Shown piece after piece: positions 1 to 8,238 of a stretch of 9,320 nt of DNA. Numbering within the stretch: the first letter of the stretch is position 1; every line of letters begins with the position of its first letter. Made by a program: the position numbers and the translations under genes. Source of the stretch: Sphingomonas sp. Lineage in GTDB: Bacteria > Pseudomonadota > Alphaproteobacteria > Sphingomonadales > Sphingomonadaceae. The notes below the pieces were generated by a model, which made no database searches, was not told where the DNA came from, and saw only the letters and a program-made list of their open reading frames with translations. The stretch is taken from the NCBI GenBank assembly GCA_030146605.1, contig JASLBO010000472.1, positions 1-9,320 of the forward strand, in the 5' to 3' direction.

Positions 1-866
1 AGCCAGTCGGATTGATAGAGGCGGTGTTCGCGCATCAGCGGCGGCCGCTGGAGCGGAAGGACGGCGCTTGCGTCGGGAATAGGGCTGAATGCCGAGTAAT
101 AGACGCGGCGCAGGCCGAAGCGGTCGTAGAGCTTGCTCGCCTTGCCGACGATCGCCCGGTCATCGGCAGAGTCGGCGCCGATGATCATTTGCGTGGATTG
201 ACCAGCAGGCGCGAACACGGGCGCCGACTTGAAGCGTTTTCCATCGTCGCGAGCAGTCTCGATCGCCCCGCGCATGTCCGCCATTGCGCCTTCGATCTGC
301 GTCGCGCTTTTCTCAGGCGCCAATTTGGTCAGACCCGCTTCGGTCGGAAGCTCGACATTGATGGACACGCGGTCAGCATGGAGTCCCGCCTTCCTGACAA
401 GTTCCGGATCAGCGTCAGGAATCGTCTTCAGGTGGATGTAGCCGCGAAAGTCGTGATCCTCCCGCAAGCTGCGCGCCACCTCGACGATCTGCTCCATCGT
501 GTAATTCGAGGAGCGGATGATCCCGGAGGAGAGGAAGAGGCCCTCGATATAATTGCGCTTGTAGAAGGCGAGGGTGAGCTGGACGATCTCCTCAGCCGTA
601 AACCTGGCGCGGCGAGCGTTCGAGCTCTTGCGGTTGATGCAATAATGGCAGTCGAAGATGCAGCTGTTGGTCAGCAGGATCTTGAGCAGGCTGATGCAGC
701 GGCCGTCGGGCGCATAAGCGTGGCAGATGCCCATGCCCTCGGTCGAGCCGATCCCCTTGCCGCCCGCCGAGTTGCGCTTGGCGGTTCCCGAGGACGCGCA
801 GGACGCGTCATATTTTGCCGCATCGGCAAGGATCGCCAGCTTCGCGCGAAGATCGAGTTGTGCCAT
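1..866 (-). CDS. Radical SAM protein, putative DNA modification/repair family (3' end outside window)
   Basis: I translated this frame by hand from the ATG at 866-864; it stays open to base 1, giving 288 residues without a stop. The radical SAM iron-sulfur motif CxxxCxxC is at C69, C73 and C76 (CIFDCHYC). Family-typical blocks are ADAAKYDASCASSG near residues 14-27, GGKGIGSTEG near 35-44, YIEGLFLSSGIIRSSNYTME past residue 100, and LRRVYYSAFSPIPDAS near the visible end. This is the radical SAM family often encoded beside a uracil-DNA-glycosylase-like protein; its substrate is unknown and a nucleic acid role is inferred from gene linkage. C23, C48 and C57 could ligate a second metal site, but that is speculation. 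The start is firm: an in-frame TAG lies four codons upstream. There is no Shine-Dalgarno sequence, so translation may be leaderless. A LexA-type operator sits just upstream. The UDG partner, if present, would lie left of base 1. Confidence 0.93.
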   Translation of the reverse strand, partial: MAQLDLRAKLAILADAAKYDASCASSGTAKRNSAGGKGIGSTEGMGICHAYAPDGRCISLLKILLTNSCIFDCHYCINRKSSNARRARFTAEEIVQLTLAFYKRNYIEGLFLSSGIIRSSNYTMEQIVEVARSLREDHDFRGYIHLKTIPDADPELVRKAGLHADRVSINVELPTEAGLTKLAPEKSATQIEGAMADMRGAIETARDDGKRFKSAPVFAPAGQSTQMIIGADSADDRAIVGKASKLYDRFGLRRVYYSAFSPIPDASAVLPLQRPPLMREHRLYQSDW

Positions 867-868
867 GT

Positions 869-883
869 GTTCTATCTATGTTC
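869..883 (-). promoter_or_regulatory. Putative LexA (SOS) operator, GTTC-N7-GTTC
   Basis: On the + strand the sequence reads GTTC, TATCTAT, GTTC; on the - strand it reads GAAC-N7-GAAC. This direct repeat with exact 7-base spacing is the established alphaproteobacterial LexA recognition motif. It lies 2 bp from the ATG of the radical SAM gene, in the short divergent spacer. LexA bound here would cover the likely -10/+1 region of a leaderless transcript. A -35/-10 pair upstream (CTGGAC, then CATAGA about 16 bases later on the - strand) is only weakly matched. The site could also influence the divergent glycosyltransferase gene. Confidence 0.72.
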
Positions 884-945
884 TTGAAATGCCGAAGTCC
901 AGAGGCAGTGGACGCGGTTTGCCGCACCCGATAAGCCATCCCGCC

Positions 946-2166
946 ATGGGGTGGGCCGTTCCCGACGATATCGCGAGGCGCATGCGCCTGCTGTGGCTGG
1001 CGATGGCGCTTACCTGCGCCGCCGGCTATCTGTTCAAGGCGCATTGCGTGCCCGGCGGCTGGACCAACGGCGAGCAATTTACCACCGGCTGCTACACCGA
1101 CGTGCTGCCTTTCTGGCAGGCGCGCGAAGTGGCGGACGGCAAGATTCCCTATTTCGAGACCCGGATGGAATATCCGGTGCTCACCGGTGCGCAGATCTGG
1201 ATCGAAGGCGGCATCACTCGCGTGGTGATCGGGCCCAAGGCGGGCGATCGCCATTTCCTGCTGGTCGTCAGCCTCGCGAACGCGCTGCTCGCCGCGCTGA
1301 TTCTGAAGCTGTTCGTGCGAGTGGGCATGGATTGGCGGCGGCTGTGGCTATGGGCGCTGGCACCGCCGCTGGTGCTGTATCTCGGGCATAATTGGGACCT
1401 TGGCGCTGCCGCGCTGCTGGTCGGCGCAATGCTGCTCGCGCGCGAGCGACGGCTGGTGCCGGCCGCCGCTCTGGCCGGGCTGGGCGCAGCGGCCAAGCTG
1501 TTCCCGGTGCTCGCGCTGCCGCTGATCGGGCTTGCGGCGCTGTTCGGCGACGATCGGCCGTGGCGCGACCGGCTGCTGCGCGCATCGGCGCTGTCGGCGG
1601 CGGCGATCGGCGCCTGGGCGCTGGTCAACCTTCCGGTTGCGCTTGCAGCGTTCGACCAATGGAGCGAGTTCTACCGCTTCTCGCAGGAACGCTCGGGCAC
1701 GATCGCGGCGAGCTGGGACGTTCTGGATAGCCAGCGCTGGTGGGTCACCTCGATCGACGAGCGCAACCGCTATGCCGCGATATCGTTCGTGCTCGGCTTC
1801 GCCGCCATTGTCGCCTTGGGCTGGCGGCGGCATCGCACCCATCTCTGGGTGCTGACCACGCCCGTGCTCGCCTGGTTCATGCTGACCAACAAGGTCTATT
1901 CGCCGCAGTTCGACCTGTGGCTCTATCCGCTGCTGATCATGACCGCGCCGCGGCTCTGGCCGATCGGGTTGTTCGTGCTCGGCGATATCGCCGTCTATTT
2001 CGCGGAGTTCCACTGGCTCGGCGACGCGGCGGCGGACCCCACCCCGGGCAGCCTCACCCCCGTCGCCATCGCGACGGGCGTCCGGGCCGCGGCGATGCTG
2101 TGGCTGATCTGCGAGTGCGTGCTGCGCGCACCCCCGGCGTGGCTGATGCAGCGGGAGGCCCGCTGA
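946..2166 (+). CDS. GT87/DUF2029 family integral membrane glycosyltransferase
   Basis: This is a hydrophobic protein of about 406 residues with roughly eight to ten predicted membrane segments, the first at residues 13-30. The family signature is visible: a periplasmic loop with CYTD (D52 is a candidate catalytic acid), then MEYPVLTG at 74-81, later AAAKLFPVLALP, and NKVYSPQFDLWLYP in the C-terminal half. GT-C enzymes of this family transfer sugars from polyprenyl-phosphate donors on the outer face of the inner membrane; donor and acceptor cannot be read from the sequence. The start is uncertain. ATGs at 865, 889, 946 and 982 are in frame and none has a well-spaced ribosome site; 982 has GAGG only 3 bp upstream. 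I chose 946 because it leaves a short basic segment before the first membrane helix and clears the radical SAM gene. The gene stands alone, divergent on one side and convergent on the other. Confidence 0.85.
   Translation: MGWAVPDDIARRMRLLWLAMALTCAAGYLFKAHCVPGGWTNGEQFTTGCYTDVLPFWQAREVADGKIPYFETRMEYPVLTGAQIWIEGGITRVVIGPKAGDRHFLLVVSLANALLAALILKLFVRVGMDWRRLWLWALAPPLVLYLGHNWDLGAAALLVGAMLLARERRLVPAAALAGLGAAAKLFPVLALPLIGLAALFGDDRPWRDRLLRASALSAAAIGAWALVNLPVALAAFDQWSEFYRFSQERSGTIAASWDVLDSQRWWVTSIDERNRYAAISFVLGFAAIVALGWRRHRTHLWVLTTPVLAWFMLTNKVYSPQFDLWLYPLLIMTAPRLWPIGLFVLGDIAVYFAEFHWLGDAAADPTPGSLTPVAIATGVRAAAMLWLICECVLRAPPAWLMQREAR
2149..2165. terminator. Perfect inverted repeat at convergent gene ends, possible bidirectional terminator
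   Basis: CAGCGGG, a 3-base loop AGG, and CCCGCTG form a 7-bp fully paired, mostly G:C stem. It overlaps the stop codon of the glycosyltransferase and lies 8 bp from the stop of the convergent gene at 2174. Neither side has a clear T-run, so classical intrinsic termination is not assured. The position between convergent genes is what suggests the role. Confidence 0.4.
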
Positions 2167-7045: not shown

Positions 7046-7703
7046 AGGGTTGCAACAAGTCTGTGCGCGGCTGTGGAGACGGCACCAACGACGTGGATAT
7101 GGGTATTCCACGCACGTCCGGAAAGTGCCGGTGCCAGGCAGGGTCGGCGGCGCGGATCGCGGTCGCCGAAGTCGGATCGGGGCGGAAGCGCAACAGCACG
7201 AGGCCGGGCAATCTCCAACTCGTCCATTTCTTCGCCTGGCCTGCGGACCGCACAGCGCGCCGCAGCCAACTCATCGCGGGACTAGCGTGAGCCCGAGCAT
7301 CATAGCCCGGACGTGCGATAACCGCAATCGGAACCTGTCGGGCAATTCGCCGCCAGTCGCGCCACTGATGGAACTGGGCGAGATTGTCGGCGCCCATCAG
7401 CCATATGAAGCGATGCTTGGGGTGGAGCCGCGGGAGCTTGGCCAAGGTGTCGGCGGTGTAGCGGGTGCGCAGCCGGGCTTCGATGTCGCTAACCCGGATC
7501 GGTGCATGGCGGGCCATTTTCCGGGCTGAAGCGAGCCGGGCGGGGTAGGGCGCCATGCCTTGTTCGGGCTTGAGCGGATTGCCTGGGGAGACGAGCCACC
7601 ATACTTCGTCGAGCCCCAGCGCGCGAACCGCGTGGAGCGAGAGCCTGCGATGCCCGCGATGTGCGGGATTGAAGGAGCCGCCGAGGAGACCGATGCGCTT
7701 CAC
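7044..7703 (-). CDS. nadD: Nicotinate-nucleotide adenylyltransferase NadD
   Basis: NadD joins nicotinate mononucleotide and ATP to form deamido-NAD, an essential cytoplasmic step of NAD synthesis. The nucleotidyltransferase signature GGSFNPAHRGH is at 8-18, with H15 and H18 as the HxGH pair. WLMGADNLAQFHQW (101-114) and the second nucleotide-binding motif TSATAIR (178-184) are also intact. The 219-residue length is normal for the family; the last 25 residues after the fold look like a variable tail. The start is GTG at 7703, whose bases overlap the TGA stop of the upstream toxin gene as GTGA. No independent strong ribosome site is visible, so nadD translation may depend on translation of the toxin gene. 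The protein begins exactly at the family's conserved N-terminus (KRIGLLGGSFNP), so a later start is not possible. Confidence 0.95.
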   Translation of the reverse strand: MKRIGLLGGSFNPAHRGHRRLSLHAVRALGLDEVWWLVSPGNPLKPEQGMAPYPARLASARKMARHAPIRVSDIEARLRTRYTADTLAKLPRLHPKHRFIWLMGADNLAQFHQWRDWRRIARQVPIAVIARPGYDARAHASPAMSWLRRAVRSAGQAKKWTSWRLPGLVLLRFRPDPTSATAIRAADPAWHRHFPDVRGIPISTSLVPSPQPRTDLLQP

Positions 7704-7987
7704 GCTTCGATCTGCCAGTCCTCGCTCTCGTGACGAATGCGGAGAATTTCGACATTGTCTCCGGCGAGGCGGTAAATGATCAAGTGCGGGCTTTGGATCA
7801 CGCGCAGGATGCGATTTCCTTCACGGGTCGGGCGGCCGCCGCGCGGGAAATTCTCGAGAAAGCGTGCACGTGGATGAATTGCAGCCAGCGTGGCCAATGC
7901 GATCTCAGCTGAGGCGCTTTCGGTGAGCCAATCGTCTATCGACCATAGATCTTGAGTAGCCGACGGAGTCCATTTCAGCGTCGGCAT
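7700..7987 (-). CDS. parE: ParE/RelE-superfamily toxin of a type II toxin-antitoxin pair
   Basis: This 95-residue protein has the ParE/RelE fold pattern: an N-terminal strand and helices (LKWTPSATQDLWSIDDWL, 4-21), a helix with LATLAAIHPRARFLENFPRGGRPTREGNR, and C-terminal strands ending HLIIYRLAGDNVEILRIRHESEDW. ParE members act on DNA gyrase and RelE members cleave mRNA; the motif order and 95-residue length favour ParE, but the target cannot be read from sequence. The ATG lies 13 bp inside the antitoxin gene, in a different frame, the usual antitoxin-first order. Its TGA overlaps the nadD start. GC is visibly lower than in neighbours (31 of 60 bases at 7741-7800, against 43 of 60 at 7501-7560), consistent with acquisition by transfer. 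The frame is intact. Confidence 0.88.
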   Translation of the reverse strand: MPTLKWTPSATQDLWSIDDWLTESASAEIALATLAAIHPRARFLENFPRGGRPTREGNRILRVIQSPHLIIYRLAGDNVEILRIRHESEDWQIEA

Positions 7988-8238
7988 CGAGCCCGGTGCT
8001 TTTCCATGCGCGCCTCGAGTTCGGCCATCACTTCTTCATGCGGGATGAGTTCGCCACGATCGGCCTCGTCGATGCCGACTTGCACGAATGCCCTGAAATC
8101 GGCCTCGCTCTCCGCTACGCGCTGGACGGCCTCGGCAACGTAATCCTCGACGCTTCTTCCTCGCGCTTCGGCGAGTTGCTCGACCAGAGCCAGCGTTTCG
8201 GCGTTGATGGGCGCCGTGATGAAAACGGGCTTGTTCAT
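7975..8238 (-). CDS. parD: ParD-like ribbon-helix-helix antitoxin
   Basis: This 87-residue protein precedes and overlaps the toxin gene. The first half fits a ribbon-helix-helix DNA-binding domain: a strand VFITAPI, then two helices through ETLALVEQLAEARGRSVEDYVAEAVQRVAE (to about residue 44). The second half (FRAFVQVGIDEADRGELIPHEEVMAELEARMEKHRA) is the acidic-to-basic tail typical of antitoxins that wrap the toxin; the HEEVMAELEAR segment is common to this group. Such antitoxins neutralise the toxin and repress their own promoter. Here there is little room for one: only 31 bp separate it from proA. GGAGG lies 14 bp before the ATG, further than ideal. Any operator would have to lie within that spacer or inside proA; I saw no clear palindrome. 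Confidence 0.85.
   Translation of the reverse strand: MNKPVFITAPINAETLALVEQLAEARGRSVEDYVAEAVQRVAESEADFRAFVQVGIDEADRGELIPHEEVMAELEARMEKHRARCRR

Follow-up and report, generated by a model that had tools for sequence, protein, structure and literature searches.

The radical SAM proteins of family TIGR03916, which we take to be the same as COG4277, are a group to which, to our knowledge, no reaction has been assigned. In Bacteroidetes, LexA controls a two-gene operon in which a uracil-DNA glycosylase (UDG, COG1573) is paired with COG4277, an arrangement called a putative base excision repair system in the main text of PMC8565304, where UDG-COG4277 SOS operons are also cited for the Verrucomicrobia and the Alphaproteobacteria (Erill 2016 and da Rocha 2008, through PMC8565304). 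The preliminary description of the locus considered here held that the family is tied to DNA repair solely by its linkage to UDG genes, a statement that is out of date in view of this SOS-regulated operon, and the SOS membership of a radical SAM-UDG operon is not new as such, since the text of PMC8565304 reports it for other clades. As in that operon, the present locus brings a UDG-family protein and its partner under LexA control, which here is predicted. The two differ in the LexA motif, and within the main text of PMC8565304 the word 'leaderless' is absent and no arrangement in which the operator serves as the -10 element was found.

The second close system is UdgX itself, which on the account given in the main text of PMC10359453 has no settled physiological role and is recognised by two signatures, a GEQPG motif and a KRRIH R-loop. 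The partner encoded downstream of the radical SAM gene in relatives of our locus shares with this UdgX the family, the GEQPG motif and the R-loop motif but, unlike it, has DUF4130/TIGR03915 as a fusion partner and is encoded behind a predicted SOS promoter; the main text of PMC10359453 uses none of the words SOS, LexA and operon. For Caulobacter four UDG-family genes are listed (PMC1839093), and the terms 'radical SAM' and 'glycosylase' are absent from the main texts of four Caulobacter SOS-related papers, whose gene tables are in supplements. Within the main texts of the open-licence PMC literature no paper was found on UdgX with radical SAM, COG4277 was found with LexA only in PMC8565304, and neither a compressed leaderless operator-promoter of fixed spacing nor the breadth of the LexA box at this gene across the Pseudomonadota was found described.

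Two further SOS promoters invite comparison. The alphaproteobacterial SOS promoters with GTTC-N7-GTTC, those of Caulobacter and of the imuA-like genes of sphingomonads, carry the same operator as the radical SAM gene; at the imuA-like genes the geometry differs, with boxes placed mostly at about -31 to -58 and a TTGACA-like hexamer that begins 19 or 20 nt ahead of the box, never 18. Mycobacterium tuberculosis belongs to another phylum and has a LexA motif that differs from GTTC-N7-GTTC. Its lexA, again a different gene, gives a leaderless SOS mRNA in which the starts of transcription and translation coincide, as stated in the text of PMC2897130.

The window, by which is meant the whole stretch of DNA analysed, comprises 9,320 nucleotides of a Sphingomonas sp. 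contig (JASLBO010000472.1), and its minus strand carries, at 3..866, the first 288 codons of a radical SAM gene of family TIGR03916 (rSAM_link_UDG). Although truncated by the window edge, the gene scores 439.5 bits against a cut-off of 343.5, and Pfam Radical_SAM is likewise over its cut-off. The CX3CX2C cluster motif reads CIFDCHYC (residues 69-76; 639..662, minus strand), and its three cysteines are invariant in an alignment of 30 sequences of relatives. Directly ahead of the gene lies the one exact GTTC-N7-GTTC of the window, GTTCTATCTATGTTC at 869-883; GTTC-N7-GTTC is the alphaproteobacterial LexA motif given in the main text of PMC8565304. On the gene strand the box reads GAACATAGATAGAAC, followed by AC at 867-868 and the ATG at 866-864, and it thus occupies -17 to -3 of the start codon, in exact agreement with the 2-bp gap first described; motif match and conservation make it a candidate LexA-type operator. 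The in-frame TAG that had been noticed within the box is borne out at 876-878 (minus strand) and rules out, in the window, a start codon further upstream.

Promoter elements can also be placed on this strand. A predicted -10 element, TAGATA, falls inside the operator at -12 to -7 (873..878, minus strand), with three of its six bases matching TATAAT, and a predicted -35 element, TGGACT, stands at -35 to -30 (896..901, minus strand), with two mismatches to TTGACA and a spacer of 17 bp. Judged from this -35/-10 register, transcription would start at or near the A (866) of the radical SAM ATG (864..866, minus strand). Both elements are weak consensus matches, and a generic promoter scan of 780-1000 of the window reported no promoter. 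On the other strand a GT87-family gene (946..2166, plus strand; Pfam GT87) diverges from the radical SAM gene and is a neighbour outside the unit. By count alone a single operator-like site per window is unremarkable, because an exact GTTC-N7-GTTC turns up, once or more, in 32 of 200 sequences obtained by dinucleotide shuffling of the window.

The position and the conservation of the site are, by comparison, unusual. A conservation check on the upstream regions of orthologues, as had been suggested, was run on close relatives and on a class and phylum sample. The close relatives are the best 80 of 580 confirmed matches from a scan of genome contigs, most of them named Sphingomonadales and a few placed only as Alphaproteobacteria or Proteobacteria. 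Just upstream of the radical SAM start, 78 of these 80 loci have the exact box (GAAC-N7-GAAC on the gene strand), against 41 such boxes in the 811,553 bases of the 80 loci that lie outside the 120 nt ahead of the gene, and in the remaining two (L015 and L079) a copy with a single mismatch likewise stands at -17. Counting the window as well, 64 of 81 genes have a box that starts at -17; in 5 others it starts at -18 or -19, in 2 at -28 and in 8 at -37 to -42, and 2 genes have no exact copy. These positions depend on radical SAM start codons that were chosen by us: for 10 of the 80 loci, where the alignment set in only downstream of the start, we settled on a start further upstream, close to the box, and in L029 and L075 other in-frame ATGs exist.

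What follows the radical SAM gene is known from the relatives, the window's own downstream gene lying outside the window. A same-strand downstream ORF with a GEQPG-type motif is found in 73 of the best 80 of 580 loci, and of the seven loci that lack a UdgX-like ORF three end within 700 nt of the radical SAM stop. The usual partner is a DUF4130-UdgX fusion: TIGR03914 (the UdgX family) and TIGR03915 are both over their cut-offs in each of the two partner proteins tested, and one partner protein aligns with the solved UdgX-type structure 6iod at an E value of 6e-52. The R-loop pattern K[RK]R[ILV]H is present in 58 of the 73 UdgX-like ORFs, with about a fifth departing from it, and the exact KRRIH in 32. 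By distance the UdgX-like ORF is directly next in 49 of the 73 loci and not directly next in 24. In plasmid regions the annotation places UdgX directly after the radical SAM gene in 5 of 7, one of the others being unannotated and one ending there. In two Sphingomonas loci (L002:6291-6797 and L016:6285-6761) a gene for a hemerythrin (HHE) domain stands between the radical SAM gene and UdgX.

The possibility that UdgX has a LexA box to itself was considered and rejected, as an exact box occurs between the radical SAM stop and 500 nt before GEQPG in only 4 of the 73 loci. In L005, L067 and L078 that box lies inside the coding region; the box of L018, 49 nt ahead of the conserved N-terminal motif, is possibly UdgX's own. 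UdgX therefore probably relies on the operator ahead of the radical SAM gene, with predicted read-through from one gene into the next.

How widely does the association between box and gene extend? Scores above the TIGR03916 cut-off were reached in 25 of the 385 genomes sampled in the class and in 84 of the 398 sampled in the phylum, which gives 98 different genes in all. An exact LexA-type box is present within -200 to +20 in 87 of these 98, as a direct repeat in 68 and as CTGT-N8-ACAG, the enterobacterial type of LexA box, in 19, with the class sample alone having a direct-repeat box in 24 of 25 genes and with the direct repeat at exactly -17 in 23 of the 98. Within 120 nt the exact box is found in 84 of 98 genes, whereas 200 Markov resamplings gave 0.36 on average and never more than 3. 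Among the 11 genes with no exact box 5 have CTGT-N8-ACAG with one mismatch, and in the other six (G577, G212, G232, G436, G524 and G492) there is no recognisable box. Three of these genomes, G232, G436 and G524, have TTAGTAGTAATACTACTAA upstream of lexA, and at their radical SAM genes neither anything like TTAGTAGTAATACTACTAA nor a LexA-type box is found. SOS control is doubtful in these three because the lexA-upstream motif is missing at the radical SAM gene, and a loss of SOS control at that gene is possible. On plasmids, of which 158 have a match, all 7 copies that were fetched have the exact direct-repeat box. In the plasmid copies L288 and L289 (Novosphingobium, Neokomagataea) the box is about 108 bp from the start and does not adjoin it.

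The same type of box is found at other SOS genes of these organisms. Of the genomes examined whose radical SAM gene has a direct-repeat box, 18 of 18 carry an exact one at lexA as well; three of them (G344, G433 and G459) are placed only as Pseudomonadota, and the survey left out the below-cut-off lexA matches of G577 and G212. The nearest of these boxes lie at -29 to -139, which means that the organisms use the direct-repeat box, but not the -17 spacing, at lexA. For recA the same 18 genomes give a direct-repeat box in 14 of 18 loci, at -88 to -151. Where the radical SAM gene has the CTGT-N8-ACAG type, the same exact type is found at lexA in 3 of 4 genomes, with no exact box at lexA in the fourth (G186). 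When GAACNTANNNNGAACNNATG was searched in 25 genomes, 21 of its 23 matches were at the radical SAM gene, the other two falling at an imuA-like gene and at a frame of 16 codons, and the reversed control of GAACNTANNNNGAACNNATG gave 0 matches in the same number of genomes; the exact spacing is thus close to unique to the radical SAM gene in those genomes.

Of 19 genomes 15 carry an imuA-like gene, whose ImuA name is weakly founded (44.6 bits where the cut-off is 150), and at all 17 of its loci a direct-repeat box, oriented as at the radical SAM gene, stands close to the start. Alongside the common range given above a few of these boxes lie at -17 to -22, the starts being again of our choosing, and the TTGACA-like hexamer begins 19 nt ahead of the box in 5 of the 17 loci and 20 nt ahead in another 5. 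One imuA-like gene (L266; box at G463:C1:1242130-1242149) has its box at exactly -17 together with an upstream TTGACG, and would be a second instance of the predicted leaderless SOS design. In 27 of the 80 relative loci (among L030-L080 of the best 80 of 580), mainly of Novosphingobium and Erythrobacter type, the same strand also carries an imuA-like gene, 1.6-4.9 kb ahead of the radical SAM start. In those 27 loci the neighbouring gene would put the radical SAM operon beside an SOS mutagenesis cassette.

Central to the reading of the promoter is the register that the -17 class maintains between box, hexamer and start codon. Since an exact box at -17 was the condition for entering the 64- and 86-gene sets, the invariance of the GAAC half-sites within them follows by construction, which does not apply to what is observed at -35, -12, -11 and -7. 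In the 64 aligned genes there is little conservation at -60 to -39 and at -30 to -19, and between these stretches conservation peaks at -36 to -31 (T-35 in 58, G-33 in 60 and C-31 in 47). Among 77 distinct -17 promoters, defined as less than 60% identical over -60 to -18, a TTGACA-like hexamer with at most 2 mismatches stands at exactly -35 in 47, compared with 0-11 at 32 other offsets. With the hexamer locked at -35, the box should hold the -10 element, and transcription would be expected to begin at the A of the ATG. The sigma-70 elements that place the start of a leaderless message at the AUG are found in this way as a property of the group, the window's own match being weak. T-12 and A-11 are present in all 64 aligned genes, an invariance that may reflect the preference of LexA as much as a -10 element and is no independent proof of the latter. 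Base -7 has no preference (A19 G19 C13 T13), and most alphaproteobacterial sigma-70 promoters do not have a T at -7, according to the text of PMC8407463; taken with these published maps, the lack of a -7 T agrees with a start at the A of the ATG.

The sequences show the box itself, how it is spaced and conserved, the -35 hexamer tied to it in the -17 class and, in relatives, the DUF4130-UdgX gene downstream. In view of these, the 15-base direct repeat is likely to be at once the SOS operator and the promoter -10 region of a radical SAM-UdgX operon. The mRNA of that operon would start at, or within about 2 bases of, the ATG. The leaderless transcript that had been suggested for the window is supported by the fixed -17 register and by the hexamer at exactly -35, and leaderless transcription is our best reading for the -17 class and for the window alike. 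The order of the sphingomonads also includes Zymomonas mobilis. In that bacterium 119 of 2,675 TSS-gene pairs correspond to leaderless mRNAs, as reported in the text of PMC7566282. Among the sphingomonads, a TSS set has been published for Novosphingobium aromaticivorans DSM 12444 (PMC7471390).

The alternative that survives best accepts the box as a true SOS operator and places the transcription start upstream of it, with LexA acting as a roadblock over the ribosome-binding region of a leadered transcript in which an AAGGA-like spacer is the Shine-Dalgarno sequence; on balance we consider it improbable. In its favour, 30 of 86 different -17 genes reach -4 kcal/mol or below for anti-Shine-Dalgarno pairing in the 20 nt ahead of the ATG (median -3.5), a moderate match by which not all of the -17 genes exclude a leadered start, and which arises in part because the spacer of the box can read AAGGA. 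The window is not of this kind, as the same 20 nt give -0.7, essentially no pairing. Pairing is stronger where the box lies at -25 or further (34 genes, median -5.25, 20 reaching -4), and a leader with a Shine-Dalgarno-like sequence is often seen when the box is further upstream. A further point for a leadered transcript is a group of eight Erythrobacter/Porphyrobacter-type loci with the box at -37 to -42, most of whose leaders are GAAAGG-like and which often contain a GAAAGGTG-like sequence.

Against a leadered transcript in the -17 class, the 64 aligned genes show no second conserved element upstream of about -38, and the TTGACA-like hexamer begins 18 nt ahead of the box in 54 of 87 -17 genes. 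In the 34 promoters with a box at -25 or further the 18-nt distance is kept in 9, with a match 25 nt ahead of the box in 13, and the coupling to the -35 element looks looser there. The choice of a start codon upstream of the box is excluded by an in-frame stop within 45 nt, with no alternative start between, in 34 of the 86 -17 genes only.

We consider it very unlikely that the box serves chiefly to regulate the divergent GT87 gene and lies near the radical SAM ATG by coincidence: the box does end 62 bp before the likely GT87 start at 946, with an in-frame ATG of that frame at 889, but a GT87 homologue is upstream in only 6 of the best 80 of 580 relatives, against the exact box in 78 of them, and the spacing of the box is fixed relative to the radical SAM ATG. 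That the repeat reflects chance or a constraint other than LexA is barely credible, since, for all that such a site turns up somewhere in a share of the window shuffles and its bare count in the window is unremarkable, the box is conserved where its flanks have diverged in the 64 aligned genes, is replaced by CTGT-N8-ACAG in 19 of 98 genes with the same type at lexA in 3 of the 4 such genomes examined, and recurs as a direct repeat at lexA, most recA and the imuA-like genes of related genomes.

On the preferred reading of the repeat as operator and -10 region together, LexA bound at -17 to -3 would, in undamaged cells, cover both the -10 element and the start site and so keep the promoter shut. 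Upon damage, RecA-stimulated cleavage of LexA would free the promoter, and sigma-70 polymerase would begin transcription with the A of the ATG, leaving a leaderless AUG for the ribosome to bind. During the SOS response a single mRNA would yield the radical SAM protein and, in most relatives, UdgX with it.

The significance of the arrangement is twofold. The LexA-type boxes in the large majority of the sampled Pseudomonadota genes point to the SOS response as the time at which to look for function, and the box at the radical SAM gene makes that function directly testable under damage. The promoter, moreover, offers an uncommonly clear example from nature of an operator doubling as the -10 element of a predicted leaderless gene, for which the Erythrobacter-type relatives, with the box further upstream and a Shine-Dalgarno-like leader, provide a ready comparison.

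What the radical SAM protein might do can be approached through its structure only in outline. The AlphaFold model, built from 30 close relatives, is poor (pLDDT 63.3) and gives the general radical SAM barrel only; in fold searches this low-confidence relative model resembles radical SAM enzymes such as HydE, lipoyl synthase and PFL-AE. No reaction is named by the model, and the absence of spore photoproduct lyase among the 50 matches listed per fold search excludes nothing. Comparison with PDB sequences gave similarity to HydE only, and that insignificant (best E 0.072). Our best guess is a radical-based repair of a DNA lesion or adduct, coupled to the trapping of uracil by UdgX. A broader proposal, speculative and as a whole rather unlikely, would make radical SAM-UdgX a core SOS module of the Pseudomonadota, in which UdgX would form a covalent trap for uracil or abasic DNA and the radical SAM enzyme, which ends in a helix-hairpin-helix-like tail, would process the trapped adduct or set it free. 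Among sphingomonads and in part of the Rhodobacterales, a stretch of about 20 bp would accommodate operator, -10 element, start site and start codon together, and the resulting mRNA, having no leader, could be translated in damaged cells without Shine-Dalgarno pairing.

Sequences resembling TIGR03916 are also found in ten phage-labelled records (H26-H35, for example CAKLQH020000003.1 92518-93558), at about 49-58% identity, and the longer of these phage matches end at query residue 356, ahead of the C-terminal tail. Elsewhere in the window, at 7700-8238 on the minus strand, an ORF for a ParE-family toxin (7700-7987, Pfam PF05016) is overlapped by a small ORF (7981-8238) whose match to DUF6290 is weak and below cut-off. 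The two form an apparent type II toxin-antitoxin pair, flanked by genes that we take to be nadD-like and proA-like.
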